Source: Pleurocapsaceae cyanobacterium CSU_1_1
Lineage (GTDB): Bacteria; Cyanobacteriota; Cyanobacteriia; Cyanobacteriales; Xenococcaceae
Assembly (NCBI GenBank): GCA_012034765.1
Contig: JAAUOU010000036.1
Span: forward strand, 1 to 39,539
Length of the DNA stretch: 39,539 bases
Direction: 5' to 3'
Part shown: positions 24,126 through 37,404 of the stretch, one piece after another
Layout of the letters: the number at the start of each line of letters is the position of its first letter
How positions within the stretch are numbered: position 1 is the first letter of the stretch
The notes under the pieces: model-generated
Told to the model about the DNA's origin: nothing
What the model saw: only the letters and a program-made list of their open reading frames with translations
The model's database searches: none
Made by a program: the position numbers and the translations under genes

Positions 24126-24297
24126 GTATTTTGAATTTAACTAGCGATGTGGCGATCGCCCTTACCAATCTAGTATTGGTGTAGTTGATCTAGATCCGCT
24201 CAAAGCTGGAAGCTATAAACTTTTTGCTCTGTCAAATTCCCAACATTATCACTACACCAATCAAGCTACGATTTATTTAAGTCAAATAGAGGTTTTT
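24126..24297 (+). promoter_or_regulatory. ppc leader with an 11-bp inverted repeat
   Basis: ATTGGTGTAGT (24175-24185) and ACTACACCAAT (24251-24261) are perfect inverted repeats 65 bp apart, so the leader RNA could form a long hairpin or the two could be a paired operator. The ppc frame stays open upstream of its ATG back to about 24145, which is either chance or a coding remnant. Confidence 0.35.
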
Positions 24298-27200
24298 ATG
24301 AGTTCGCTTGTTCAATCTTCGATAGTAAATCGAGAAGACACTGATGTGGTTGACACTTCCCACTTACTGTTGCGTCATCGACAAAAATTAATTGAAGACC
24401 TCTGGGAGTCGGTGCTGCGCTCAGAATGCGGTCAGGAAATGCTCGATCTGCTCCAGCAAATGCGCTCTCTTCATTCTGCTGAAGGACAAGTAACAGTAAC
24501 ATTTACCCAATCTTCCGTACCACAGTTAATTGAAAAGTTAAGTCTGAACGATGCTATTCAAGGAGCCAGGGCATTTGCGCTTTATTTTCAACTAATTAAC
24601 ATTGTTGAACAACATTACGAATCAAGAGAGCAAAAACTAGCTCGGCGTGTGACTCAAGTTTCCCCTCATGACCTTAACGATAAAAAGCCCTTAGTGCCAG
24701 AAACTCCGACTACGGAAGCTCACAGTAAAACACCAAAATTAAACAATAATTGGACTGAACCCAGCATATCGAGCAGCAATCAGGCGGGACTATTTCATTG
24801 GCTCTTTCCTTATCTCAAGGAAATTAATATGCCTCCGTTGATGTTGCAAAGACTATTAGATCAGCTTGATATTAGATTAGTTTTTACCGCTCATCCTACG
24901 GAAATTGTCCGTCACACCATCCGCAAAAACAGCGCCGTATTGCCCAAATTTTAGAGCAGTTAGACGTTGCCGAAGAAGCAATGCAAGAAATTGGGCAAAT
25001 TGAATCCTGGGAAGCTAATGAAATCGTGGCTCAGTTAACCGAAGAGATTCGCCTTTGGTGGCGGACTGATGAGCTGCATCAATTTAAACCTAAAGTATTA
25101 GATGAAGTAGATTACTCCCTACACTACTTTCAAGAAGTCTTATTTGACGTAATTCCTCAATTAGCTTCTCGCCTCAAGCAGTCTTTAGGGGCATCTTTTC
25201 CCAAACTAATTGCTCCAACCCATAACTTTTGCTACTTCGGGTCTTGGGTCGGTTCAGACCGTGATGGTAACCCGTTTGTGACACCTCAAGTAACCTGGGA
25301 AACTGCCTGCTATCAGCGAACAATTGTCATCGGCAAATATCTAGAGGCGATCGCCCAATTAAGAGAAATTTTGAGCCTTTCCCTGCACTGGAGTGATGTA
25401 CAGCAAGAATTACTTGACTCTCTAGAGCAAGATCAGCAGCAAATGCCCAGCGTTTACCAGGAATTATCAATTCGCTATCGTCAAGAACCTTATCGTCTCA
25501 AGCTAGCCTATATTGCTTGTCGATTGAGCAACACGCTGGAAAGAAATCGAGCTTTGTCCTCAGCGGCGGGAAGACAGGCAATCTCCGAAATTCAGACTGA
25601 AAATATCTACACTGCGGGAGATGAGTTTGTCGCTGAATTAAAGCTGATGCAGACTAGTTTAGCTGCCACCAGGCTACAGTGTCGTGAGTTGGATAATTTA
25701 ATTACTCAAGCCGAGGTGTTTGGCTTTAACTTGGTCGAGTTAGATTTTCGTCAGGACTCCTCTCGACATAGTGATGCGATCGCCGAAATTACTGCCTACC
25801 TTCAGGTCTTACCAAAACCCTACGATGAACTTTCTGAAGCCGAAAAAACTACCTGGTTGATTCAGGAATTAAAAACTCGTCGTCCCCTGATTCCAGGAGA
25901 AATGCCTTTTTCCCCTACGGCTTGTGAAACAATTGAAACTTTTCGGATGTTGCGACTTTTGCAGCAGGAATTTAGCACCAAAATTTGTAAAACCTACGTC
26001 ATCAGCATGACTAATTTTGTCAGCGATGTTTTAGAGGTGCTGCTGCTGGCTCAGGAGGCGGGACTATACGACCCTGCTACTTGCTGCACTTCGATTAGGA
26101 TTGTTCCTTTATTTGAGACGGTAGAAGATCTCAAACGCGCGCCAGAAGTGATGCGAGAACTATTTGAGCTACCTCTATATCGTGCTTCCTTGGCGGGGGG
26201 GTACGAACATGTTTCAGCGCAACGGGAGGAGATTTCAACCACTACTTTAGTGCCTCTGCAACCCTGTAATTTACAAGAAGTGATGTTGGGCTATTCCGAC
26301 AGTAATAAAGACTCAGGTTTTTTAAGCAGTAACTGGGAAATTCATAAAGCTCAAAAAGCTTTACAGCAGGTGGCGGCTGAATTTGGTATCTCCCTACGGA
26401 TTTTTCATGGTCGCGGTGGTTCGGTAGGTCGCGGTGGTGGACCCGCTTATTCAGCAATTTTGGCTCAACCAACAGATACGATTCAGGGCAGAATTAAAAT
26501 TACCGAGCAGGGAGAAGTGCTAGCTTCTAAGTATTCTTTGCCTGAATTGGCTTTATATCATCTCGAAACAATGACTACAGCGGTAATTCAGTCTAGTTTA
26601 CTCGGTAGTGGATTTGATCGGGTTGAACCCTGGAATCAGATTATGGAAGAGCTATCAGCGCGATCGCGCACCGTCTATCGCTCTCTAATTTATGAACAAG
26701 AAGACTTCGTTGACTTTTTCCATTCCGTCACTCCTATAGACGTAATTAGCCAGCTTCAGATTGGCTCTCGCCCCTCTAAGCGTCCAGGCAAAGGTGGAGC
26801 TGGAGCTAACAACAAAAAAGATATGAGCAGTCTCAGGGCAATTCCCTGGGTGTTTAGCTGGACTCAAAGTCGCTTTTTACTACCTGCTTGGTATGGTGTC
26901 GGCTCGGCACTACATGGCTTTTTAGAGCAAGAGCCTGAGAAAAATCTCGATCTGCTGCAATATTTTTATGTCAAGTGGCCTTTCTTTCGAGTGGTTATCT
27001 CTAAAGTAGAAATGACCCTGGCTAAAGTAGATCTTCAGATTGCCGAACATTACGTCAAAGAATTATCTCAACCAGAAGATCTTGAGCGTTTCCAAAAGTT
27101 ATTTGCTCAGATCTCAGAAGAATATAATCTCACTAAAGCCTTAATTCTCAAAATAAACGGTCAGCAAAAGCTGCTAGACGGTAATCTTGAGCTACAGCGA

Positions 27201-27428
27201 TCAGTGCAATTGCGTAACGGCACAATTGTTCCCCTTGGATTTTTACAGGTAGCGCTAATCAAACGCTTACGTCAACACGATAAATCTCAAGTGCTTCACT
27301 TCCGCTTTAGCAAAGAAGAATTATTGCGGGGGGCAATGTTAACTATTAATGGGATTGCTGCAGGGATGAGAAATACTGCTGATCCTTCAAAGCTTACTTT
27401 TGACTTTAGCTTTGAAGGAGTGCGGTAA
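24298..27428 (+). CDS. ppc: Phosphoenolpyruvate carboxylase, one-base frameshift
   Basis: PEPC fixes bicarbonate onto PEP to make oxaloacetate, the main anaplerotic step of cyanobacteria. The first frame ends after the catalytic His motif [14 protein letters not shown]. The second resumes with [41 protein letters not shown], the glycine loop [14 protein letters not shown], and the C-terminal tail [11 protein letters not shown]. The break is a run of five A at 24925-24929; six would give [15 protein letters not shown] and join the halves into a normal protein of about 1043 residues. The N-terminal Ser/Thr-rich linker (about 125-165) is usual in cyanobacteria. Every catalytic motif is intact, so sequence error is the likely cause. 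Confidence 0.93.
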
Positions 27429-27439
27429 TTAAATACGCC

Positions 27440-28887
27440 ATGAAAAAAAAGTGGGTAATTGCTGTTTGCCTATTGGGAATAAGTGTCTTGGTTCGTTTCC
27501 CCTACTATTTTGTCGATGTCATCAATTGGGATGAAAGCACATTTATTTTGATGGGTCAATCTCTTTTGGATGGACATCTTCCTTATACGGAACTATGGGA
27601 TATTAAACCACCCCTAGCATTTGCAGCTTACGCTTTTGTGATCATGTTGTTGGGCAAAAATATTCTGGCTATTCGTATTGCAGGGACAATATGCGTGTTT
27701 CTAACTTCATGGTTAGTTTATCTAGTTGGTAGATATATTGGGAGCAATTCCGCAGGCATATTTGCGGGCATTTTGACAATTGTGACTGTAACGGCGATCG
27801 ACAGCGGACAGGCTACTATGACCGAACATGTTGCCTGTGTACCGCTTCTAGGAGCATTAACTTGGTTAGTTACCCACAAAATGACTCCAGGAGCGCTATT
27901 TCTAGGGGGTCTATTGCTAACTGGAGCAACATTAGTCAGGCTTAATTTGGCTTATGTGGTGTTAGGAGTCGGAATTTGGCTTGTATATAGCACTTTTAAG
28001 CATCAGACGCTAGAGTTACAAGGAATAGCTGCCTATTGCCTGGGTAGCTTTAGCTTAATATTCTTAACTTTTTTTCCCTATCTGATTAAGGGAGACAGTT
28101 TAATTTGGTTTAATTCCGTGGTGTTAGCTCCTCTCAGTTATGCTAATTCAGCAGGACACACAGGAATGGGAACGGAGAAAAAATTACTTCTTGCCTGCTT
28201 AATTTTCGGGATTCTCAATCAACTCTGGCAAAGAACTTCAGCCAAGCAACAGCGAGAATTTGGGCTATTGCAGGTATTTCTTTTGAGTACAGTCATCTCA
28301 ATTATTCAAGGTGGGGAATTGCACGAGCATTACTGTATTCAGATTTTTCCGTTATTATCCTTAACTTTTGCTTTATTTTGGGCGAGATTACCGAAAATAA
28401 GTCGCTTACTGCTGGTGACTTTGGTTGCTTTTGGGCTGATTTCTATATTAAAGCCGATATATACTCAATATCAGGTTGTTGGCGATCGCCTAAAACTAGA
28501 AAACCTCTAAATTATGGTCATTCCTATGAAATTATTGAATATTTACAGCACCATAATCCTGAACAACGACCTGTATATCTGATGAAAAATCATCTTGTTT
28601 ACTGGCTTACTGAGCTTAAGCCTCTAAGTAAAGCAGCTACTCATCCTTCTAATCTTTCTAAAGATTACCTTTTTAAATACATCGAGGGTGCAGCAGGTTC
28701 TACAGAAGCAGAATTAAGCAAAATATTGACAAAAAAGCCCGAATTTATCATCAAAGGAGGCGAAGATACACCCTATATTGAAGATCATCCTGATGCGAAT
28801 TTATTATTGAAGCAGGTTTTAACCACCAAATATAAGTTAGTTAAAAAAGTTGGCGATCGCGAAATTTATCGGATTCGTTCCCTTTAA
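27440..28887 (+). CDS. ArnT/PMT-like membrane glycosyltransferase (GT39 type), one-base frameshift
   Basis: The start lies 11 bp after ppc, so the two are probably cotranscribed. The first 340 residues contain about ten membrane segments. NWDESTFILMGQSLLDGHLPYTELWDIKPPL carries the acidic residue near the first loop that is typical of polyprenyl-phosphate-dependent mannosyl- and arabinosyltransferases. The frame ends at ENL (28510). A shift at the A run 28500-28503 (five A instead of four) gives DRLKLEKPLNYGHSYEII and continues with the soluble tail YLQHHNPEQRPVYLMKNHLVYWLTE to 28887, total about 482 residues. Acceptor and sugar are unknown; a cell-surface glycan role is inferred. Confidence 0.82.
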
Positions 28888-29790: not shown

Positions 29791-32700
29791 ATGCAACTAG
29801 AACCCATCGCAATTATTGGTATTGGCTGTCGTTTTCCAGGTGCTGAGAATCCCCAAGCTTTTTGGTCAATGATCCGAGATGGCAAAAGTGGAATAGTTGA
29901 AGTCCCTGAATCTAGGTGGGATGTTGATGCCTATTACGATGCGGATTGTAGTCAGCCAGGGAAAGCCCATACTCGCTGGGGTGGGTTTCTCGACGATATA
30001 GAAAGTTTCGATCCGCAATTTTTTGGCATTGCTCCCAAGGAAGCAATCACAATGGATCCTCAACAACGTCTTTTGTTGGAAGTGGCTTGGTCAACTTTCG
30101 AAGATGCAGGACAAATTCCTGAAGAGCTTAAAGGTAGTAAAACAGGAGTATTTATCGGGATTGGGACTCATGATTATTCCATCATGATGTGGCAACAGCC
30201 TGTGAGTGAACCCTATGCCACTACAGGGACAGGTAACTGTATTGCTGCTAATCGGATTTCTTATAGTTTTGATTTTAAAGGGCCTAGTTTGGCGGTGGAT
30301 ACTGCTTGTTCTTCTTCCTTGGTAGCGGTTCATTTGGCTTGTCAGAGTATTTGGACGGGGGAGTCGGAGTTAGCTTTAGCTGGTGGGGTAAATATGCTGC
30401 TGTTGCCAACAATTATGGTGGGTTTTAGTAAAGGTGGATTTATGTCTACCCAAGGGCGCTGTCAGAGCTTTGATGCAGATGCGGATGGCTATGTTAGGGG
30501 AGAGGGAGCAGGCTTGGTACTCTTAAAACCTCTCGCTCAAGCTAAAGCAGATGGGGATAATATTTACGGGGTAATTCTCAGTAGTGCTGTTAATCAGGAT
30601 GGTTTAAGTAACGGTTTAGCAGCACCAAATCCCCAGGCGCAAGAGGCGGTATTACGAGAAGCGTATCAAAAAGTAGGGATAGATCCTACTCAGGTAGATT
30701 ATGTTGAAGCACACGGTACAGGAACAAAAGTGGGCGATCCTATAGAAGCGAATGCTTTAGGGGCAGTTTTTGGAGAGCGTCGTGAATCAGGAAATAAGTG
30801 CCTAATTGGTTCAGTTAAAACAAATATTGGTCATACCGAAACCGCAGCGGGAATCGCAGGGATTATCAAGGTAGCACTGGCGCTCAAGCATAAACAGATT
30901 CCTCCTAGCTTAAATTTTAACAAACCCAATCCAGCGATCGCCTTTGAAGATCTTAAGTTACAGGTGGTAACAGAATTGACTCCCTGGTTAGCAGACAAGC
31001 CTTTAATTGCGGGGGTGAATTCCTTTGGTTTTGGGGGAACGAATGCTCATGTTGTCATGGGTGGGGTTGAGGATGGGGAATTAGGGAAATGGGGAATTAG
31101 GGAAGTAGTCCTAAAGGATACCGCTTCGCATAGGCGAGCTGATCTGCTGACTTTATCGGCGAAGAGTAAGTCTGCTTTAAAGGAGTTGGCGCAAAGTTAT
31201 TTAAATTTTATCCCAAATTGCGATCTCTCTTGGACAGAAATTTGTACGGGGACTCAAACGCAGCGGAGTCATTTTAATCATCGTCTAACCTGTATTGCTA
31301 AATCTCCAGAGCATTTGCAGCAACAGTTAACAGCTTTTATAACCAACCAAGAAGCAGCAGGATTAAGATTTAGCACCGTTAGTAATCAAACTAAACAAAT
31401 TTGTTGGCTGTTTACTGGACAAGGTTCGCAATATGTGGGGATGGGTCAAGAACTTTATCACACTCAGCCTGTGTTTCAGGAGTCATTAGACCGCTGTGCC
31501 ACCATTCTAAAAGCTTATTTAGATCGACCTTTATTAGAGGTGATTTTTTCCTCAGATACTTCTGATTGCACCGATCATCAAGCAGAAATTAATCGCACTG
31601 TCTATACTCAACCCGCGATCTTTGCCTTGGAATATGCCTTGGCGCAATTATGGCTAGCTTGGGGAATTAAACCTGATTATGTAGCGGGACATAGTATTGG
31701 CGAATATGTTGCTGCCTGTATTGCAGGGGTTTTTAGTCTAGAAGATGGTTTAAAGTTGGTTGCCACTAGGGGTAGGTTAATGGAAGAATTGCCCTCATCA
31801 GGAGGGATGCTGGCTGTGTTTAGCAGTCAGATTGAAATTGCCGAATTGATTGCTCAGTATCAGGAAGTAAATATTGCAGCAGTTAATCATCAGCAAAATA
31901 CAGTTATTGCAGGCAACATCAATACCCTAGCTGTAATTGAAGATAAGCTGGCAAGTTTAGAGATTTCTAGCACTCTGCTGGAAGTTTCTCATGCTTTTCA
32001 TTCTCCCTTGATGAAGCCGATGCTGGGAGATTTTCGACAAGTGGCGGAGTCTATTACCTATCATCTGCCTCAGATTCCTTTAGTTTCTAGCGTTACGGCG
32101 CAGCTTGCCAATGAATCAATTACTAGTCCTAATTATTGGGTCGAGCATATTATTCAACCTGTTAATTTTGCTGATGGGTTTCAGTTTTTGTTAGAGCAAA
32201 AAATAGATATCTTTCTCGAAATTGGGGCAAAACCAATTCTTTCTAGTATTGGTGCAACTATCTCAGCCACAACCGATTATGCAACCATTTTGCTGTCGAG
32301 TTTATCAAATAAGCAACCTGATGAACAAGTAATCTTAAATAGCCTTGCCCAGTTATATCATCAGGGAATAGAAATTAATTGGCGCAAGTTCAACCAGGAT
32401 ATTGATTCCCGTAGAGTTAAACTACCCACCTATCCTTTTCAACGTCAGCGTTATTGGTGGGAACAGGCTAAGTTTTGGACTAAAGATGTTCCTGTACAGC
32501 AGATACATCCTCTGTTGGGGAATCCGTTAACTTTAGCAGGGACATCAGAAATACGCTGGACAGGGCAAATTAATGGTCATCTTCCTGATTATCTTCAGGA
32601 TCATCGCTTAGAGGGGGAGATTGTCTTTCCCGCAACGGCATATCTAGAGATGGCTTTAGCAGCAGGGTCAGATATTTGTGCTAAGAGCATACAGCTAAGA

Positions 32701-35700
32701 GAATTTATTATTCATCAGCCTTTAATCTTGAGAGATAAATCTACTCAACTTCAGACGGTGTTATCCCCTGTTGTAGATGTTGTAGATTCAGCTTATCGGG
32801 TACAGATTTTTAGCCGTGAGGTAGATAGTGATCCTGATGCATTTATTCTGCATAGTGAAGTGGTAATTACTTTTCAAGCCGAGGAATTGACTAACAACCT
32901 AGACTTGGCTCATCTAAAATCGCGATTACAGCCACAAACAGCAGAAATTGCTGATTACTATCAGTCGTTGAGCAAACAAGGCTTAAATTATGGCGTTAGT
33001 TTTCAAGGCCTTAAACAGATTTGGTATGGGGAAACAGAAGCTTTAGGCTATATTCAGTTACCAGATAATTTAAACAGTCAAGCTAGTAACTATCAAATTC
33101 ATCCTGCTTTACTTGATGCTTGTTTACAGTTAATTGGCACAGTTACCGAAGCCAACTCAGGCATATACTTACCCGTCGGCATTGAATCTCTAAGTTTGAC
33201 TCAAGCTAATCTTAATCAAGTATGGGCTTACATAACCATTAAACCCACCCTAAACAAGCAAATTATTACAGCAGATCTAGTTTTAACAAATGATGCGGGT
33301 ACTGTAGTAGTAGAGATTATTAATTTATCTCTTCAATATCTTAGCTGGCGATCGCTCCAAAAACTCCTCAATATTTCTCCATCAGCAGAAAATAAAAATA
33401 GTCTTACTCAACATCTCTACGAAATAGACTGGGAACAGAAGAGTTTAATTACCACTGAAGCGACAAAACCAACAGATCATGACTGCTGGCTGATCTTTTC
33501 TAGGGACAACGAACTAACTCAAGTGTTAACTCAAAAATTAGCTGGTATTTCAGTGATTTTAGGGGATGATTACTTTAATCAATCTAATACCCATTTATAT
33601 ACCATCAATCCTAGTCAAGTAGAAGATTGGCAGAGTTTATGGCAGGCTGTTAACTACCAACCGCAGAATAATTTAAAAATTGCTTATTTTTGCAGTCAGG
33701 AAGAACCTGCAAGCAGTAACCTTTATGCCGAAATATTCAATTTAATTCAGTCTATAACCGAAGCAAGGCTTAATCTGACTCAATTAAACATTATTACCGA
33801 GCAAAGTCAATACAAAGCAATAAATAATCTGACAGGAGGACTCTGGGGTTTAGGTCGCACAATACAGCAGGAATATCCCCAGTTATGCTGTAATTTACTT
33901 GATTTTGATAGTTTACAGCTTAATAATCTACCCCCAATATTCTCAGAATTACTCGCCTCGGATGGTGAAACTCAAGTAGCGTATCATCATCAGCAAAGAT
34001 ATGTCCCCAGACTAACTCCCAGAGATAATACCTTAGATCATCCTTACTGTCTGCAATTATCTGCATACGGTAGTCTCGACAATCTTACCCTCGCACCCAT
34101 AGAGCGTAAAGCGCCTCAACAGGGAGAAATCGAAATTGCGGTAGCAGCTAGTGGAGTTAATTTCCGTGATGTGTTGAACGCCTTGGGAGTACTCAAAGAA
34201 TATCTTCAGGCAATGGGGTTTAATGACTCCACTGAAGTTCCTTTTGGGGGAGAATGTGCAGGGGTTGTGGTGGCAGTAGGCAAAGATGTAAAGAATTTCC
34301 AGATCGGTGATGAAGTAATTGCAGCGCAGGCGGTGGGAAGCTTAAGTAGTCATGTAACGGTGCAGGCTAAATTTGCGATCGCAAAACCAAAAAATCTCAC
34401 CTATAGTTCAGCTGCAACCATCCCCACTACCTTCTTGACTGCATACTACGGGCTACATCATTTAGCCCAAATCAAACCAGGAGATAAAATTCTCATTCAC
34501 GCTGCTGCGGGGGGTGTCGGGCTGGCTGCGGTACAGATCGCCCAACAGATAGGTGCAGAAGTTTACACTACCGCTTCTGTTGGCAAATGGGACTTTTTGA
34601 AGGCTTCAGGGGTTAAATATGTAATGAACTCCCGTAATCTGGATTTTGCTGAGGAAGTAATGCAGTTAACGGGTGGCAAAGGGGTAGACTTAATTCTCAA
34701 TAGCTTAAACGGTGATTTTATTCCCCAGAATTTAGCTATTCTCGCCCCCAATGGTCGATTTGTAGAGATTGGCAAGGTAGGTATTTGGGAACATGCTCAG
34801 GTGGCGGAAGCACGAGATGATATTAGTTATTTTCCTTTTGATTTACTAGAGGTTTCCCGTCAAGATCCCGATCTGATTAAGCGTATGTTTGCTGAATTAA
34901 TTCAGCAGTTTGTTGATGGTAAATTAGAGCCTCTACCCCACCAGATTTTTCCCATTCAGCAAGCGGATGATGCCTTTCGCTATATGGCACAGGCTAAACA
35001 CATCGGCAAGGTGGTAATTGATTTCCCTACTAATCATCAGGTAGTTACCAGCGACGGCAGCTATTTGATTACAGGTGGTATGGGTGCGTTGGGTTTACAG
35101 GTGGCAAACTGGCTAGCCGAAGAAGGGGCAAAACATCTGATTCTTGTAAGTAGAAACCAGCCTGAGATATCTGCACAACAAGAAATAGCTTCCCTCAAAC
35201 AGCAAGGTATTAAAGTAGATCTGATCCAGATTGATATTAGCGATAGTCAAGCTGTAAACGATCTCTTTGAGAGTTTTAATTCGAGTCAATTTAAGCTCAA
35301 AGGTATAATCCACGCAGCAGGAATCCTGGATGATGGTCTTTTAAAAAGCCTCTTTTGGGAGCGTTTTCAGCGAGTTTTACAGCCCAAAGTTGCTGGGGCT
35401 TGGAATCTCCATCAAGCTACGGAAAAATTAGCCCTAGACTGGTTTGTCTGCTTCTCTTCGATCGCATCTACTTTTGGTGCAGCAGGACAAAGTAACTACG
35501 CGACTGCTAACGCTTTTATGGATAACCTGATGAGTTATCGCCGTCACCAGGGTTTACCAGGCTTAAGCATCAACTGGAGTATTTGGGATGAAGTAGGAAT
35601 GGCAAGTCGTTTGACTCCCGAACAACAGCAAAGATTAAGCCAACAGGGTTTAACTGCGATCGCGCCATCTCAGGGATTAAAAGTACTCAAACAATTATTG

Positions 35701-37404
35701 CAGCAACAGGCAACCCAAACCATCGTCTTTCCCGTAGACTGGGCAAGGTTTTTAAGTCAACAACCTGCTAATCCTTTCTTTGAGAGAGTACAGCCCCAAG
35801 CCAAGGTTCAAAAAGTTCAAACTTCATCTTTCCTCCAGCAGTTAGCCCAAACCAACCCAGCACAACAACATGATCTTTTACAATCCCACATTCGCCTACA
35901 AATAGCCAAGGTGTTAGGCTTTAGCGATCCTGAAAATGTTGATATCCAAGAAAAATTTGCCGATTTGGGTATGGATTCCCTGATGGCGGTAGAGTTTAAA
36001 AACAATCTCCAGGCTAGCTTTGGTAATGCGATCTCTTTAACGGCTGCTTTTGACTATCCCAACGTCGAACTGCTAACAGCGTATCTTGCTCAAGAATTAT
36101 TAGACGGAAATGTTTTATCAAATATAGATCAATCCCCGCAGCAGGTTACAGCTAAAATCCCTATCGCCAATAAACCGCAAATTACGCCGATAACCACCAA
36201 GAAAATCCAGGTTAAACCCGAATACAGCCAATTCAAACTTACTCCAGAATATATCAATCTTAAAAAAGACTTACAACGGGTAGAAAAATTAGGCAATCCC
36301 TTCTTTAGTCTCCATCAGGGTATTGCCCAAGATACAATTCAAACTGGCGATCGCACCTTAATCAACTACTCCAGCTACAATTATCTCGGTATGTCAGGAG
36401 ATCCCACCGTCATTGCTGCTACCCAAAAAGCGATCGCCGAATACGGAACTTCAGTCTCCGCCAGTCGAGTATTATCGGGAGAACGTCCCATCCATCTGGA
36501 ATTAGAACAGGAAATAGCAGATTTAATCGGCACAGAGGCAGCGATCATTTATGTAGGCGGTCATGCTACCAACGTCAGCACTATTGGTCATCTGTTTGGC
36601 AAACAAGATCTAATTATCTGTGATGCCCTCAGCCACAATAGTATTCGAGAAGGATGTAACCTATCAGGAGCAACGATCATTGATTTCCCCCACAATGACT
36701 GTCAGGCTTTAGCAGAAATCTTAAACCGAGAAAGAACTAAATATCAAAAAGTCTTAATTGCGATCGAAGGTATTTATAGCACTGATGGCGATCTTGCTCC
36801 CTTGCCCGAAATAGTTGCCCTGAAGCGACATTATCAAACTTTTCTCTTAGTTGATGAAGCTCATTCAATTGGTGTACTGGGTTTATCTGGCGGAGGAATT
36901 AGAGAACACTATAACCTGCAACCAACAGATGTGGATCTATGGATGGGAACTCTCAGCAAATCCTTTGCTAGCTGTGGTGGCTATATTGCGGGAAGTAGTG
37001 AACTGATCGAATATCTCAAATATACTGCTCCTGGTTTTGTCTTCAGCGTGGGGATGTCTCCTGCTAATACCGCAGCAGCTTTAGCAGCAATTAGATTACT
37101 CAAGTCAGAACCAGAAAGAGCGATTAAAATCCAAACGAGAGCCAAATTCTGCCTCGATTTAGCTAAAAATAAAGGTTTAAATACAGGCTACAGCGCCGAT
37201 TCGCCTGTCATCCCAATTATCGTCGGTGAACCCCATAAAGCAGTGCGTTTGTCACAACTATTAAATCAAGCAGGAATTAACGTTAACCCGATGGTATATC
37301 CTTCTGTACCCTACAATGCTGCTCGTTTACGCTTTTTTATTACCTGTCTGCATACAGAGGCTCAAATTCAGCAGACAATCGAAGCTGTAGTGGCTTCTAG
37401 CTGA
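29791..37404 (+). CDS. Single-module reducing type I polyketide synthase fused to an alpha-oxoamine synthase
   Basis: The protein has 2537 residues and no frameshift. Domains in order: KS (1-425) with Cys173 in DTACSSS, His308 in EAHGTGT and His348 in NIGHTE; AT (about 530-840) with Ser635 in GHSIGEY and HAFH at 734-737, indicating malonyl-CoA; DH (about 905-1180) with His938 in HRLEGEIVFP and Asp1109 in HPALLDAC; a non-catalytic KR half; ER (about 1445-1750) with HAAAGGVGLAAVQ near 1570; KR (about 1755-1930) with TGGMGALG at 1761, LDD, Ser1890 and Tyr1903; ACP with Ser2063 in GMDSL; and a PLP alpha-oxoamine synthase (about 2155-2537) with His2282, Asp2355/His2358 (DEAHSIG) and Lys2390 in TLSKSFAS. 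There is no thioesterase, so release should be by decarboxylative condensation with an amino acid. The start MQLEPIAIIGIGCRFPG is canonical. No accessory biosynthetic genes are adjacent. Confidence 0.93.
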   Translation: MQLEPIAIIGIGCRFPGAENPQAFWSMIRDGKSGIVEVPESRWDVDAYYDADCSQPGKAHTRWGGFLDDIESFDPQFFGIAPKEAITMDPQQRLLLEVAWSTFEDAGQIPEELKGSKTGVFIGIGTHDYSIMMWQQPVSEPYATTGTGNCIAANRISYSFDFKGPSLAVDTACSSSLVAVHLACQSIWTGESELALAGGVNMLLLPTIMVGFSKGGFMSTQGRCQSFDADADGYVRGEGAGLVLLKPLAQAKADGDNIYGVILSSAVNQDGLSNGLAAPNPQAQEAVLREAYQKVGIDPTQVDYVEAHGTGTKVGDPIEANALGAVFGERRESGNKCLIGSVKTNIGHTETAAGIAGIIKVALALKHKQIPPSLNFNKPNPAIAFEDLKLQVVTELTPWLADKPLIAGVNSFGFGGTNAHVVMGGVEDGELGKWGIREVVLKDTASHRRADLLTLSAKSKSALKELAQSYLNFIPNCDLSWTEICTGTQTQRSHFNHRLTCIAKSPEHLQQQLTAFITNQEAAGLRFSTVSNQTKQICWLFTGQGSQYVGMGQELYHTQPVFQESLDRCATILKAYLDRPLLEVIFSSDTSDCTDHQAEINRTVYTQPAIFALEYALAQLWLAWGIKPDYVAGHSIGEYVAACIAGVFSLEDGLKLVATRGRLMEELPSSGGMLAVFSSQIEIAELIAQYQEVNIAAVNHQQNTVIAGNINTLAVIEDKLASLEISSTLLEVSHAFHSPLMKPMLGDFRQVAESITYHLPQIPLVSSVTAQLANESITSPNYWVEHIIQPVNFADGFQFLLEQKIDIFLEIGAKPILSSIGATISATTDYATILLSSLSNKQPDEQVILNSLAQLYHQGIEINWRKFNQDIDSRRVKLPTYPFQRQRYWWEQAKFWTKDVPVQQIHPLLGNPLTLAGTSEIRWTGQINGHLPDYLQDHRLEGEIVFPATAYLEMALAAGSDICAKSIQLREFIIHQPLILRDKSTQLQTVLSPVVDVVDSAYRVQIFSREVDSDPDAFILHSEVVITFQAEELTNNLDLAHLKSRLQPQTAEIADYYQSLSKQGLNYGVSFQGLKQIWYGETEALGYIQLPDNLNSQASNYQIHPALLDACLQLIGTVTEANSGIYLPVGIESLSLTQANLNQVWAYITIKPTLNKQIITADLVLTNDAGTVVVEIINLSLQYLSWRSLQKLLNISPSAENKNSLTQHLYEIDWEQKSLITTEATKPTDHDCWLIFSRDNELTQVLTQKLAGISVILGDDYFNQSNTHLYTINPSQVEDWQSLWQAVNYQPQNNLKIAYFCSQEEPASSNLYAEIFNLIQSITEARLNLTQLNIITEQSQYKAINNLTGGLWGLGRTIQQEYPQLCCNLLDFDSLQLNNLPPIFSELLASDGETQVAYHHQQRYVPRLTPRDNTLDHPYCLQLSAYGSLDNLTLAPIERKAPQQGEIEIAVAASGVNFRDVLNALGVLKEYLQAMGFNDSTEVPFGGECAGVVVAVGKDVKNFQIGDEVIAAQAVGSLSSHVTVQAKFAIAKPKNLTYSSAATIPTTFLTAYYGLHHLAQIKPGDKILIHAAAGGVGLAAVQIAQQIGAEVYTTASVGKWDFLKASGVKYVMNSRNLDFAEEVMQLTGGKGVDLILNSLNGDFIPQNLAILAPNGRFVEIGKVGIWEHAQVAEARDDISYFPFDLLEVSRQDPDLIKRMFAELIQQFVDGKLEPLPHQIFPIQQADDAFRYMAQAKHIGKVVIDFPTNHQVVTSDGSYLITGGMGALGLQVANWLAEEGAKHLILVSRNQPEISAQQEIASLKQQGIKVDLIQIDISDSQAVNDLFESFNSSQFKLKGIIHAAGILDDGLLKSLFWERFQRVLQPKVAGAWNLHQATEKLALDWFVCFSSIASTFGAAGQSNYATANAFMDNLMSYRRHQGLPGLSINWSIWDEVGMASRLTPEQQQRLSQQGLTAIAPSQGLKVLKQLLQQQATQTIVFPVDWARFLSQQPANPFFERVQPQAKVQKVQTSSFLQQLAQTNPAQQHDLLQSHIRLQIAKVLGFSDPENVDIQEKFADLGMDSLMAVEFKNNLQASFGNAISLTAAFDYPNVELLTAYLAQELLDGNVLSNIDQSPQQVTAKIPIANKPQITPITTKKIQVKPEYSQFKLTPEYINLKKDLQRVEKLGNPFFSLHQGIAQDTIQTGDRTLINYSSYNYLGMSGDPTVIAATQKAIAEYGTSVSASRVLSGERPIHLELEQEIADLIGTEAAIIYVGGHATNVSTIGHLFGKQDLIICDALSHNSIREGCNLSGATIIDFPHNDCQALAEILNRERTKYQKVLIAIEGIYSTDGDLAPLPEIVALKRHYQTFLLVDEAHSIGVLGLSGGGIREHYNLQPTDVDLWMGTLSKSFASCGGYIAGSSELIEYLKYTAPGFVFSVGMSPANTAAALAAIRLLKSEPERAIKIQTRAKFCLDLAKNKGLNTGYSADSPVIPIIVGEPHKAVRLSQLLNQAGINVNPMVYPSVPYNAARLRFFITCLHTEAQIQQTIEAVVASS
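31075..31140 (+). repeat. Tandem 14-mers and palindromic repeat half inside the polyketide synthase gene
   Basis: GGGGAATTAGGGAA occurs at 31075-31088 and 31091-31104, followed at 31108-31133 by GTCCTAAAGGATACCGCTTC and GCATAG. The latter matches the reverse complement of the 6992-7017 part of the intergenic palindrome at 24 of the first 25 positions. The whole segment is translated in frame as the KS-AT linker (about residues 429-450, ending KDTASHRRADLL). Confidence 0.8.

Follow-up and report, generated by a model that had tools for sequence, protein, structure and literature searches.

What a gene makes that joins a complete reducing polyketide synthase (PKS) module to an alpha-oxoamine synthase (AOS) domain, and whether it makes it alone, is the question raised by one locus in a 39,539-nucleotide stretch of DNA (here called the window) from Pleurocapsaceae cyanobacterium CSU_1_1. 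The assembly to which the window belongs, as contig C74, is a 4.6-Mb draft genome of 196 contigs; among named organisms, Pleurocapsa and Xenococcus are closest to it by AOS. An initial annotation had read the gene as a stand-alone enzyme that builds a saturated chain iteratively and releases it as an alpha-amino ketone, analogous to a sphingoid base.

The PKS-AOS gene and its domains

Positions 29791 to 37404 form a single forward frame with an ATG start, encoding a 2537-aa protein in which Pfam placed KS-AT-DH-ER-KR-ACP and then Aminotran_1_2, every domain above its gathering score; the domain order first proposed was thus borne out. The features are as follows.

29791..37404, + strand: PKS-AOS gene, 2537 aa; 91% identical copy in L004; dN/dS 0.215
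29800..30918, + strand: KS domain, residues 4-376 (Pfam); C173/H308/H348; nearest PDB entry CurL
31405..32253, + strand: AT domain, residues 539-821 (Pfam); HAFH motif; S635/H737
32506..33345, + strand: DH domain, residues 906-1185 (Pfam); H938, D1109
34120..35019, + strand: ER domain, residues 1444-1743 (Pfam); GGVG motif
35056..35592, + strand: KR domain, residues 1756-1934 (Pfam); Y1903
35893..36087, + strand: ACP domain, residues 2035-2099 (Pfam); S2063
36355..37386, + strand: AOS domain (Aminotran_1_2), residues 2189-2532 (Pfam); D2355/H2358/K2390

Catalytic residues had been said to be present, and all 12 positions checked (C173/H308/H348, S635/H737, H938/D1109, Y1903, S2063 and D2355/H2358/K2390) were indeed there and did not vary in any of the 10 full-length fusions compared; K2390 and the DEAHSIG motif (residues 2355 to 2361) lay where the initial annotation had put them. 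The AT, described there as malonyl-type, carries HAFH, which we take to be the malonyl-type motif. The glycine of HxxxGxxxxP, presumably the DH motif pattern, was present in the window protein and absent from the nine relatives compared, and the LDD motif of the KR was variable among nine fusion relatives compared. As had been stated, no thioesterase was found in the PKS-AOS protein, the AOS being its C-terminal end. Ahead of the KS, the fusions showed nothing that resembles a docking segment, a point against the pathway proposed below. A full-length copy with 91% identity is present in Pleurocapsa sp. CCALA 161 (locus L004), with a dN/dS of 0.215 for the whole gene (0.057 for the KS and 0.146 for the AOS), and the frame is therefore not a chance one. 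A DUF4079 gene upstream was the only flanking gene found to be common to the window and L004.

Elsewhere in the window, a phosphoenolpyruvate carboxylase (24145-27425) lies in two overlapping frames, 24145-24951 and 24876-27425, with the break near a run of five A, which may be a sequencing error or a real break. At 27416-28884, a second frame on the same strand (28147-28884) overlaps that of a PMT_2 glycosyltransferase (27440-28510), possibly a frame break as well; this glycosyltransferase had no BLAST match to the GT39 proteins of Planktothrix.

The AOS family and the origin of the fusion

A scan of genome contigs found 95 AOS relatives, 80 of which were kept. Relatives of the window AOS were mostly carrier-linked, as PKS-ACP-AOS, ACP-AOS or FAAL-ACP-AOS proteins or as a discrete AOS whose gene neighbors one for a PKS or an ACP. 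The complete KS-AT-DH-ER-KR-ACP-AOS layout was found in Pleurocapsa, Xenococcus, Chlorogloea, Okeania and Leptolyngbya, as well as in genomes G011, G296 and G123 and on a Planktothrix plasmid, and a discrete AOS beside a PKS in Microcystis, Cyanothece, Cylindrospermum, Opitutaceae and Rhodospirillaceae. FAAL-ACP-AOS proteins of about 1100 to 1200 aa occurred in Nostoc, Burkholderiales and, as assigned by length (Pfam on one), many Planctomycetes; ACP-AOS proteins of about 510 to 580 aa occurred in several cyanobacteria and in Legionella. PKS-AOS proteins of other order were also found, such as the KS-AT-AOS of Mycobacterium, in which Pfam detected no carrier domain at E 1e-5.

The AOS tree comprised 115 rows and came from a quick search with long-branch warnings; AOS stretches below 300 aa, duplicates (L001, L084-L087, L089-L091, L093, L094, L096, L097, L100, L102 and L103) and most loci numbered L115 and above were left out. 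In this tree the complete fusions formed one 12-row clade (SH-aLRT 97), in which rows L005 and L009 are contig fragments, and PKS-AOS proteins of different layout (L037, L043, L062, L064 and L074) fell outside it. The KS tree held 33 rows, partial pieces included, after KS stretches below 180 aa or 80 bits had been dropped; in it the 10 fusion KSs grouped with a support of 94/86, just under the star mark of the tool. Because the fusions form one clade in the AOS tree and their KSs group as well, the complete fusions in the sampled set appear to go back to a single event.

Some relatives lie in other settings. Five Legionella genomes (L036, L040, L054, L060 and L065) encode a 508- to 532-aa protein ending in a window-type AOS, all in one clade; in L036, the only one of the five scanned, Pfam gave ACP-AOS. 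On L009, a contig assigned to Tatlockia (Legionellaceae), the AOS and the GT4 are 95% identical to those of Chlorogloea; the contig is probably misbinned cyanobacterial DNA. A B12-binding radical SAM protein with DUF4070 was observed at or near the AOS in L111, L159, L165, L108 and L095 (by Pfam in three and by BLAST in the rest).

The window AOS has the hallmarks of the fold-type I PLP AOS family (Schiff-base Lys, Asp, stacking His and Arg) and, on its sequence, is a member of that family. It was 34% identical to serine palmitoyltransferase (SPT) of S. multivorum (3a2b), and the curated NCBIfam equivalog cut-offs for SPT were not reached by the window protein (327 of 640, 285 of 500 and 226 of 670 bits). 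In the AOS tree it lay in a 97-row clade (SH-aLRT 100) that lacks 3a2b, the sole SPT included, in a quick search with a long-branch warning; it scored 354 of 426 bits and was placed apart from a 7-row clade of cyanobacterial BioF-like proteins. The pocket comparison, which the initial annotation had proposed as a guide to the amino acid, showed that several places conserved in SPT differ in the window AOS, so that serine is not established as the substrate. A Ser before the Schiff-base Lys was common to the window AOS, SPT and the BioF-like proteins and therefore does not discriminate SPT. Homology gives good support to an alpha-amino ketone as the released product. The AOS is intact, and the sphingoid-base analogy was upheld. 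In comparison with SPT and with the SPT/AcpR/AasR set of Rhodobacteria, as covered in the part of PMC9386255 considered here, the acyl chain of the window system would be PKS-built and PKS-held in cis.

The genome of the window encodes two more AOS proteins: contig C141 has a 537-aa ACP-AOS with 64% identity, and C51 a 400-aa protein with 38%. The latter falls in the 7-row cyanobacterial clade of about 400-aa proteins (two rows being the same protein), which is taken to be BioF. In the window's genome and one of the same genus, an ACP-AOS gene is flanked by two sigma-70-type genes (L104 10546-14535 and L109 6938-11066).

Chain building ahead of the AOS

The PDB entry nearest to the KS-AT of the window was CurL (4mz0), a module of the curacin line, which has no AOS. 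The KS-AT scores speak against an iterative reducing PKS like mycocerosic acid synthase (534 bits, versus 852 bits for CurL), and by KS-AT likeness and domain order the window PKS is classed as a modular cis-AT type I PKS module. Lines that end in a window-type AOS contained no PKS module (FAAL-ACP-AOS), one (G296) or two (G123 and Planktothrix). In G296, FAAL-ACP, PKS-AOS and a short-chain reductase (SDR) stand in a row, and in G123 an AT-DH-ER-KR-ACP protein, cut by the locus edge, lies directly upstream of the PKS-AOS. The region on plasmid p3 of Planktothrix agardhii NIVA-CYA126/8 reads FAAL, GT39, alpha/beta hydrolase, PKS-AOS, GT39, hypothetical protein, GT4, SRPBCC and a second PKS, the last being a 2811-aa FAAL-ACP-KS-AT-DH-ER-KR-ACP protein 7.4 kb from the PKS-AOS. 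Between the SRPBCC gene and the second PKS, two unannotated KS-like frames (L167 20505-22419) are perhaps the remains of another PKS gene.

Pieces of C141 in the window's genome matched this second PKS at 43 to 48% over nearly its whole length, and an SRPBCC gene adjoins them; the homologue is split in three frames (G000 C141, L113 4448-12916), with the ACP-AOS near it on the same contig. FAAL genes are present in the genome, including a FAAL-hydrolase pair on C24 that resembles the one on the Planktothrix plasmid. The description of the gene as stand-alone thus holds for the window and fails for the genome, with its FAAL-ACP-PKS homologue, its FAAL genes and the genes on C8 and C122 described below. 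Another large PKS gene, on C173 (L139 8000-16248), is also broken, into two frames.

The iterative reading, in which the PKS-AOS acts alone and uses malonyl-CoA to build a saturated chain of fixed length that the AOS then releases, accords with a protein that begins at its KS and comprises one complete reducing module, and with the lack of an adjacent loading gene in the window, L004 and L006. We consider it unlikely, since the KS-AT resembles modular CurL far more than the iterative mycocerosic acid synthase, the number of modules before the AOS varies from 0 to 2 across related lines, and FAAL-ACP loading occurs in several of them. We infer from these likenesses that the window gene would be the last module of a FAAL-loaded, two-protein line.

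Reductase, glycosyltransferase and the candidate pathway

SDR genes were found next to fused AOS domains, discrete AOS proteins and FAAL-ACP-AOS proteins alike; at 10 loci, the stop codon of the AOS gene and the earliest possible start of the SDR were -56 to 526 nt apart (median, 37.5). The best PDB match of the SDR beside the AOS in L106 was the 3-ketodihydrosphingosine reductase (KDSR) TSC10 (8jat; E 5.5e-31, the next being 1.1e-24). A reductase on C8 of the window's genome was 62% identical to this SDR and also had TSC10 first in the PDB, by less than 2 bits (109.2 versus 107.5 for 8hjw); for the next-best SDR of the genome, TSC10 was absent among the best 60 of 447 PDB matches. The signature PPDTDTP-x4-EN-xx-KP, which we take to be the form in human KDSR, was present in 16 of the 17 SDRs compared from this family, the remaining one having PPDTNTP, and in none of 9 SDRs from outside it; its EN-xx-KP part is common to TSC10 and the family SDRs. 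With TSC10 as its nearest solved relative and the EN-xx-KP region present, the C8 gene is a candidate 3-ketodihydrosphingosine reductase; it differs from TSC10 in being bacterial, unlinked to a PKS-AOS gene and of predicted activity only. A GT4 gene is the next gene after the PKS-AOS in Chlorogloea and lies on C122 in the window's genome, likewise unlinked to the PKS-AOS. The earlier statement that no sphingolipid-type genes accompany the gene is accordingly correct for the window and is amended for the genome, which has both the KDSR-like reductase and the GT4. A further GT4 copy, with one internal TAG, was observed on C98 (1346-2560).

Co-occurrence was assessed in 386 cyanobacterial genomes at E 1e-90 or better for the AOS, 1e-50 for the SDR and 1e-70 for the GT4, with p-values that ignore the relatedness of the genomes. 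The AOS was found in 19 genomes and the SDR in 17, with both in 13 (0.84 expected); by genus, AOS and SDR were found in 15 and 12 of 142, respectively, with an overlap of 10 (p 2.8e-10). All 14 genomes with the GT4 had the SDR, and 10 of them had the AOS. Three of the genomes with SDR and GT4 (G058, G083 and G211) have a divergent FAAL-ACP-AOS immediately next to the SDR, in the order FAAL-ACP-AOS, SDR, FAAL, GT4; when these are counted, a carrier-linked AOS accompanies the SDR in 16 of 17 genomes and the GT4 in 13 of 14. In G118, which has reductase and GT4, a carrier-linked AOS was not found. Of the 17 SDR genomes, 8 had the SDR near the AOS and 8 had it elsewhere, among them the window's genome and G011, where it is about 20 kb away. 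A fusion-sized frame (2465 to 2760 aa) was present in 4 of the 19 AOS genomes. Neither SDR (E 1e-50) nor GT4 was found in 6 of the 19 (G002, G022, G235, G237, G251 and G382), and a different SDR was near the AOS in G002, G251 and G382. As a control, the patchily distributed DNA methylase of the window (23 of 386 genomes) shared 2 genomes with the AOS (1.13 expected, p 0.31), 3 with the SDR (1.01 expected, p 0.07) and 3 with the GT4 (0.83 expected, p 0.044), and is not quite flat for the GT4 or the SDR.

Other genes were observed in these neighborhoods. Aspartyl/asparaginyl beta-hydroxylase-like proteins, which might hydroxylate the lipid, are encoded near AOS or GT4 genes in four genomes (L105 4544-5311 and relatives in G157, G262 and G360; Pfam on one). 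A histone-deacetylase-like protein (L158 13199-14134) and an inositol-1-phosphate-synthase-like protein (L171 11451-12545) are encoded close to GT4 genes.

We regard it as fairly probable that a glycosylated sphingoid-like lipid is made by a dispersed pathway in which the PKS-AOS is the terminal module, extending and releasing the chain. In such a pathway, a FAAL would activate a fatty acyl chain and an ACP would carry it in trans, the best loading candidate being the FAAL-ACP-KS-AT-DH-ER-KR-ACP homologue on C141; the window KS would then accept the chain and extend it once, adding C2 from malonyl-CoA. The extended chain, held on the ACP, would be fully reduced by KR, DH and ER; at the AOS, a PLP-bound amino-acid carbanion would attack the acyl-ACP with loss of CO2 and free a long-chain alpha-amino ketone, so that no thioesterase would be needed. 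Adjacency in relatives and co-occurrence suggest that the C8 reductase would turn the ketone into an amino alcohol and that the C122 GT4 would glycosylate this alcohol or its N-acylated form. Because the C8, C122 and C141 genes lie on other contigs, the linkage is drawn from homology and co-occurrence.

That separation, together with the 6 of 19 AOS genomes without reductase and GT4 and the radical SAM or other genes that adjoin some AOS relatives, would also suit a soluble secondary metabolite, an amino ketone or a derived, prodigiosin-like pyrrole or heterocycle, unlinked to reductase and GT4; PigH-type AOS domains feed pyrroles, according to the part of PMC3870968 considered here. Co-occurrence of AOS with SDR and of SDR with GT4, and their adjacency in relatives, including beside the PKS-AOS of G296, make such a product improbable. 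The AOS-SDR-GT4 set might instead belong to the C141 ACP-AOS, with the window gene a side branch that has its own product, as in the same-genus genome G070 an ACP-AOS, SDR and GT4 are present with no match to the PKS-AOS; the broken C141 PKS may likewise serve the nearby ACP-AOS instead of the window gene. We find the side-branch reading doubtful, given that the PKS-AOS is the only strong AOS in G296, G011 and G123, all of which have SDR and GT4, and that the GT4 directly follows the PKS-AOS in Chlorogloea.

Proteins of the PKS-AOS kind were already known, since Milano et al. (2013; PMC3870968), in the parts considered here, describe Aminotran_1_2 (AOS) domains after carrier proteins in PKS and NRPS proteins, with layouts A-CP-PLP2, CP-PLP2, A-CP-KS-AT-PLP2 and KR-CP-PLP2 and with cyanobacterial and planctomycete members. 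Those domains resemble that of the window in following a carrier protein and in having SPT as nearest solved relative. Table 2 of that paper lists no complete KS-AT-DH-ER-KR-ACP-AOS, a reducing module being listed with Aminotran_3 (C8RZN9), and the main-text parts give no link of a KDSR-like reductase or glycosyltransferase to the AOS. As far as the literature search reaches, the complete reducing module with AOS, in the company of reductase and GT4, is new. In sphinganine-analogue mycotoxins and vitroprocines, as treated in part of PMC4523872, a polyketide chain likewise leaves its synthase by joining to an amino acid, which gives a sphingoid-like product; the window system differs from those PLP-release systems in the fusion of its AOS to a bacterial PKS of modular type.

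According to part of PMC8895605, only two cyanobacterial sphingolipids are known, from Scytonema julianum and Moorea producens, the genetic basis of both is unreported, and Nostoc punctiforme appears to be without a route. One glucosylceramide, mooreaside A, is built on a C17 base (PMC6272925, in part). PMC8895605 also points to a putative 571-aa second AOS of Moorea, which by length alone is about the size of the ACP-AOS proteins found here. The set of AOS, KDSR-like reductase and GT4 is a concrete candidate for the missing sphingolipid genes, and a one-gene PKS-AOS would offer a compact means of producing long-chain amino ketones. We tentatively suggest, as a possibility somewhat short of even, that the window gene ends a dispersed cyanobacterial route to PKS-built glycosphingolipid-like lipids, made via FAAL-PKS, PKS-AOS, KDSR-like reductase and GT4, and that this route is a candidate for the genetic basis of cyanobacterial sphingolipids; if so, the sphingoid chain in these organisms would be finished by a PKS and not taken ready-made from fatty acid synthesis.
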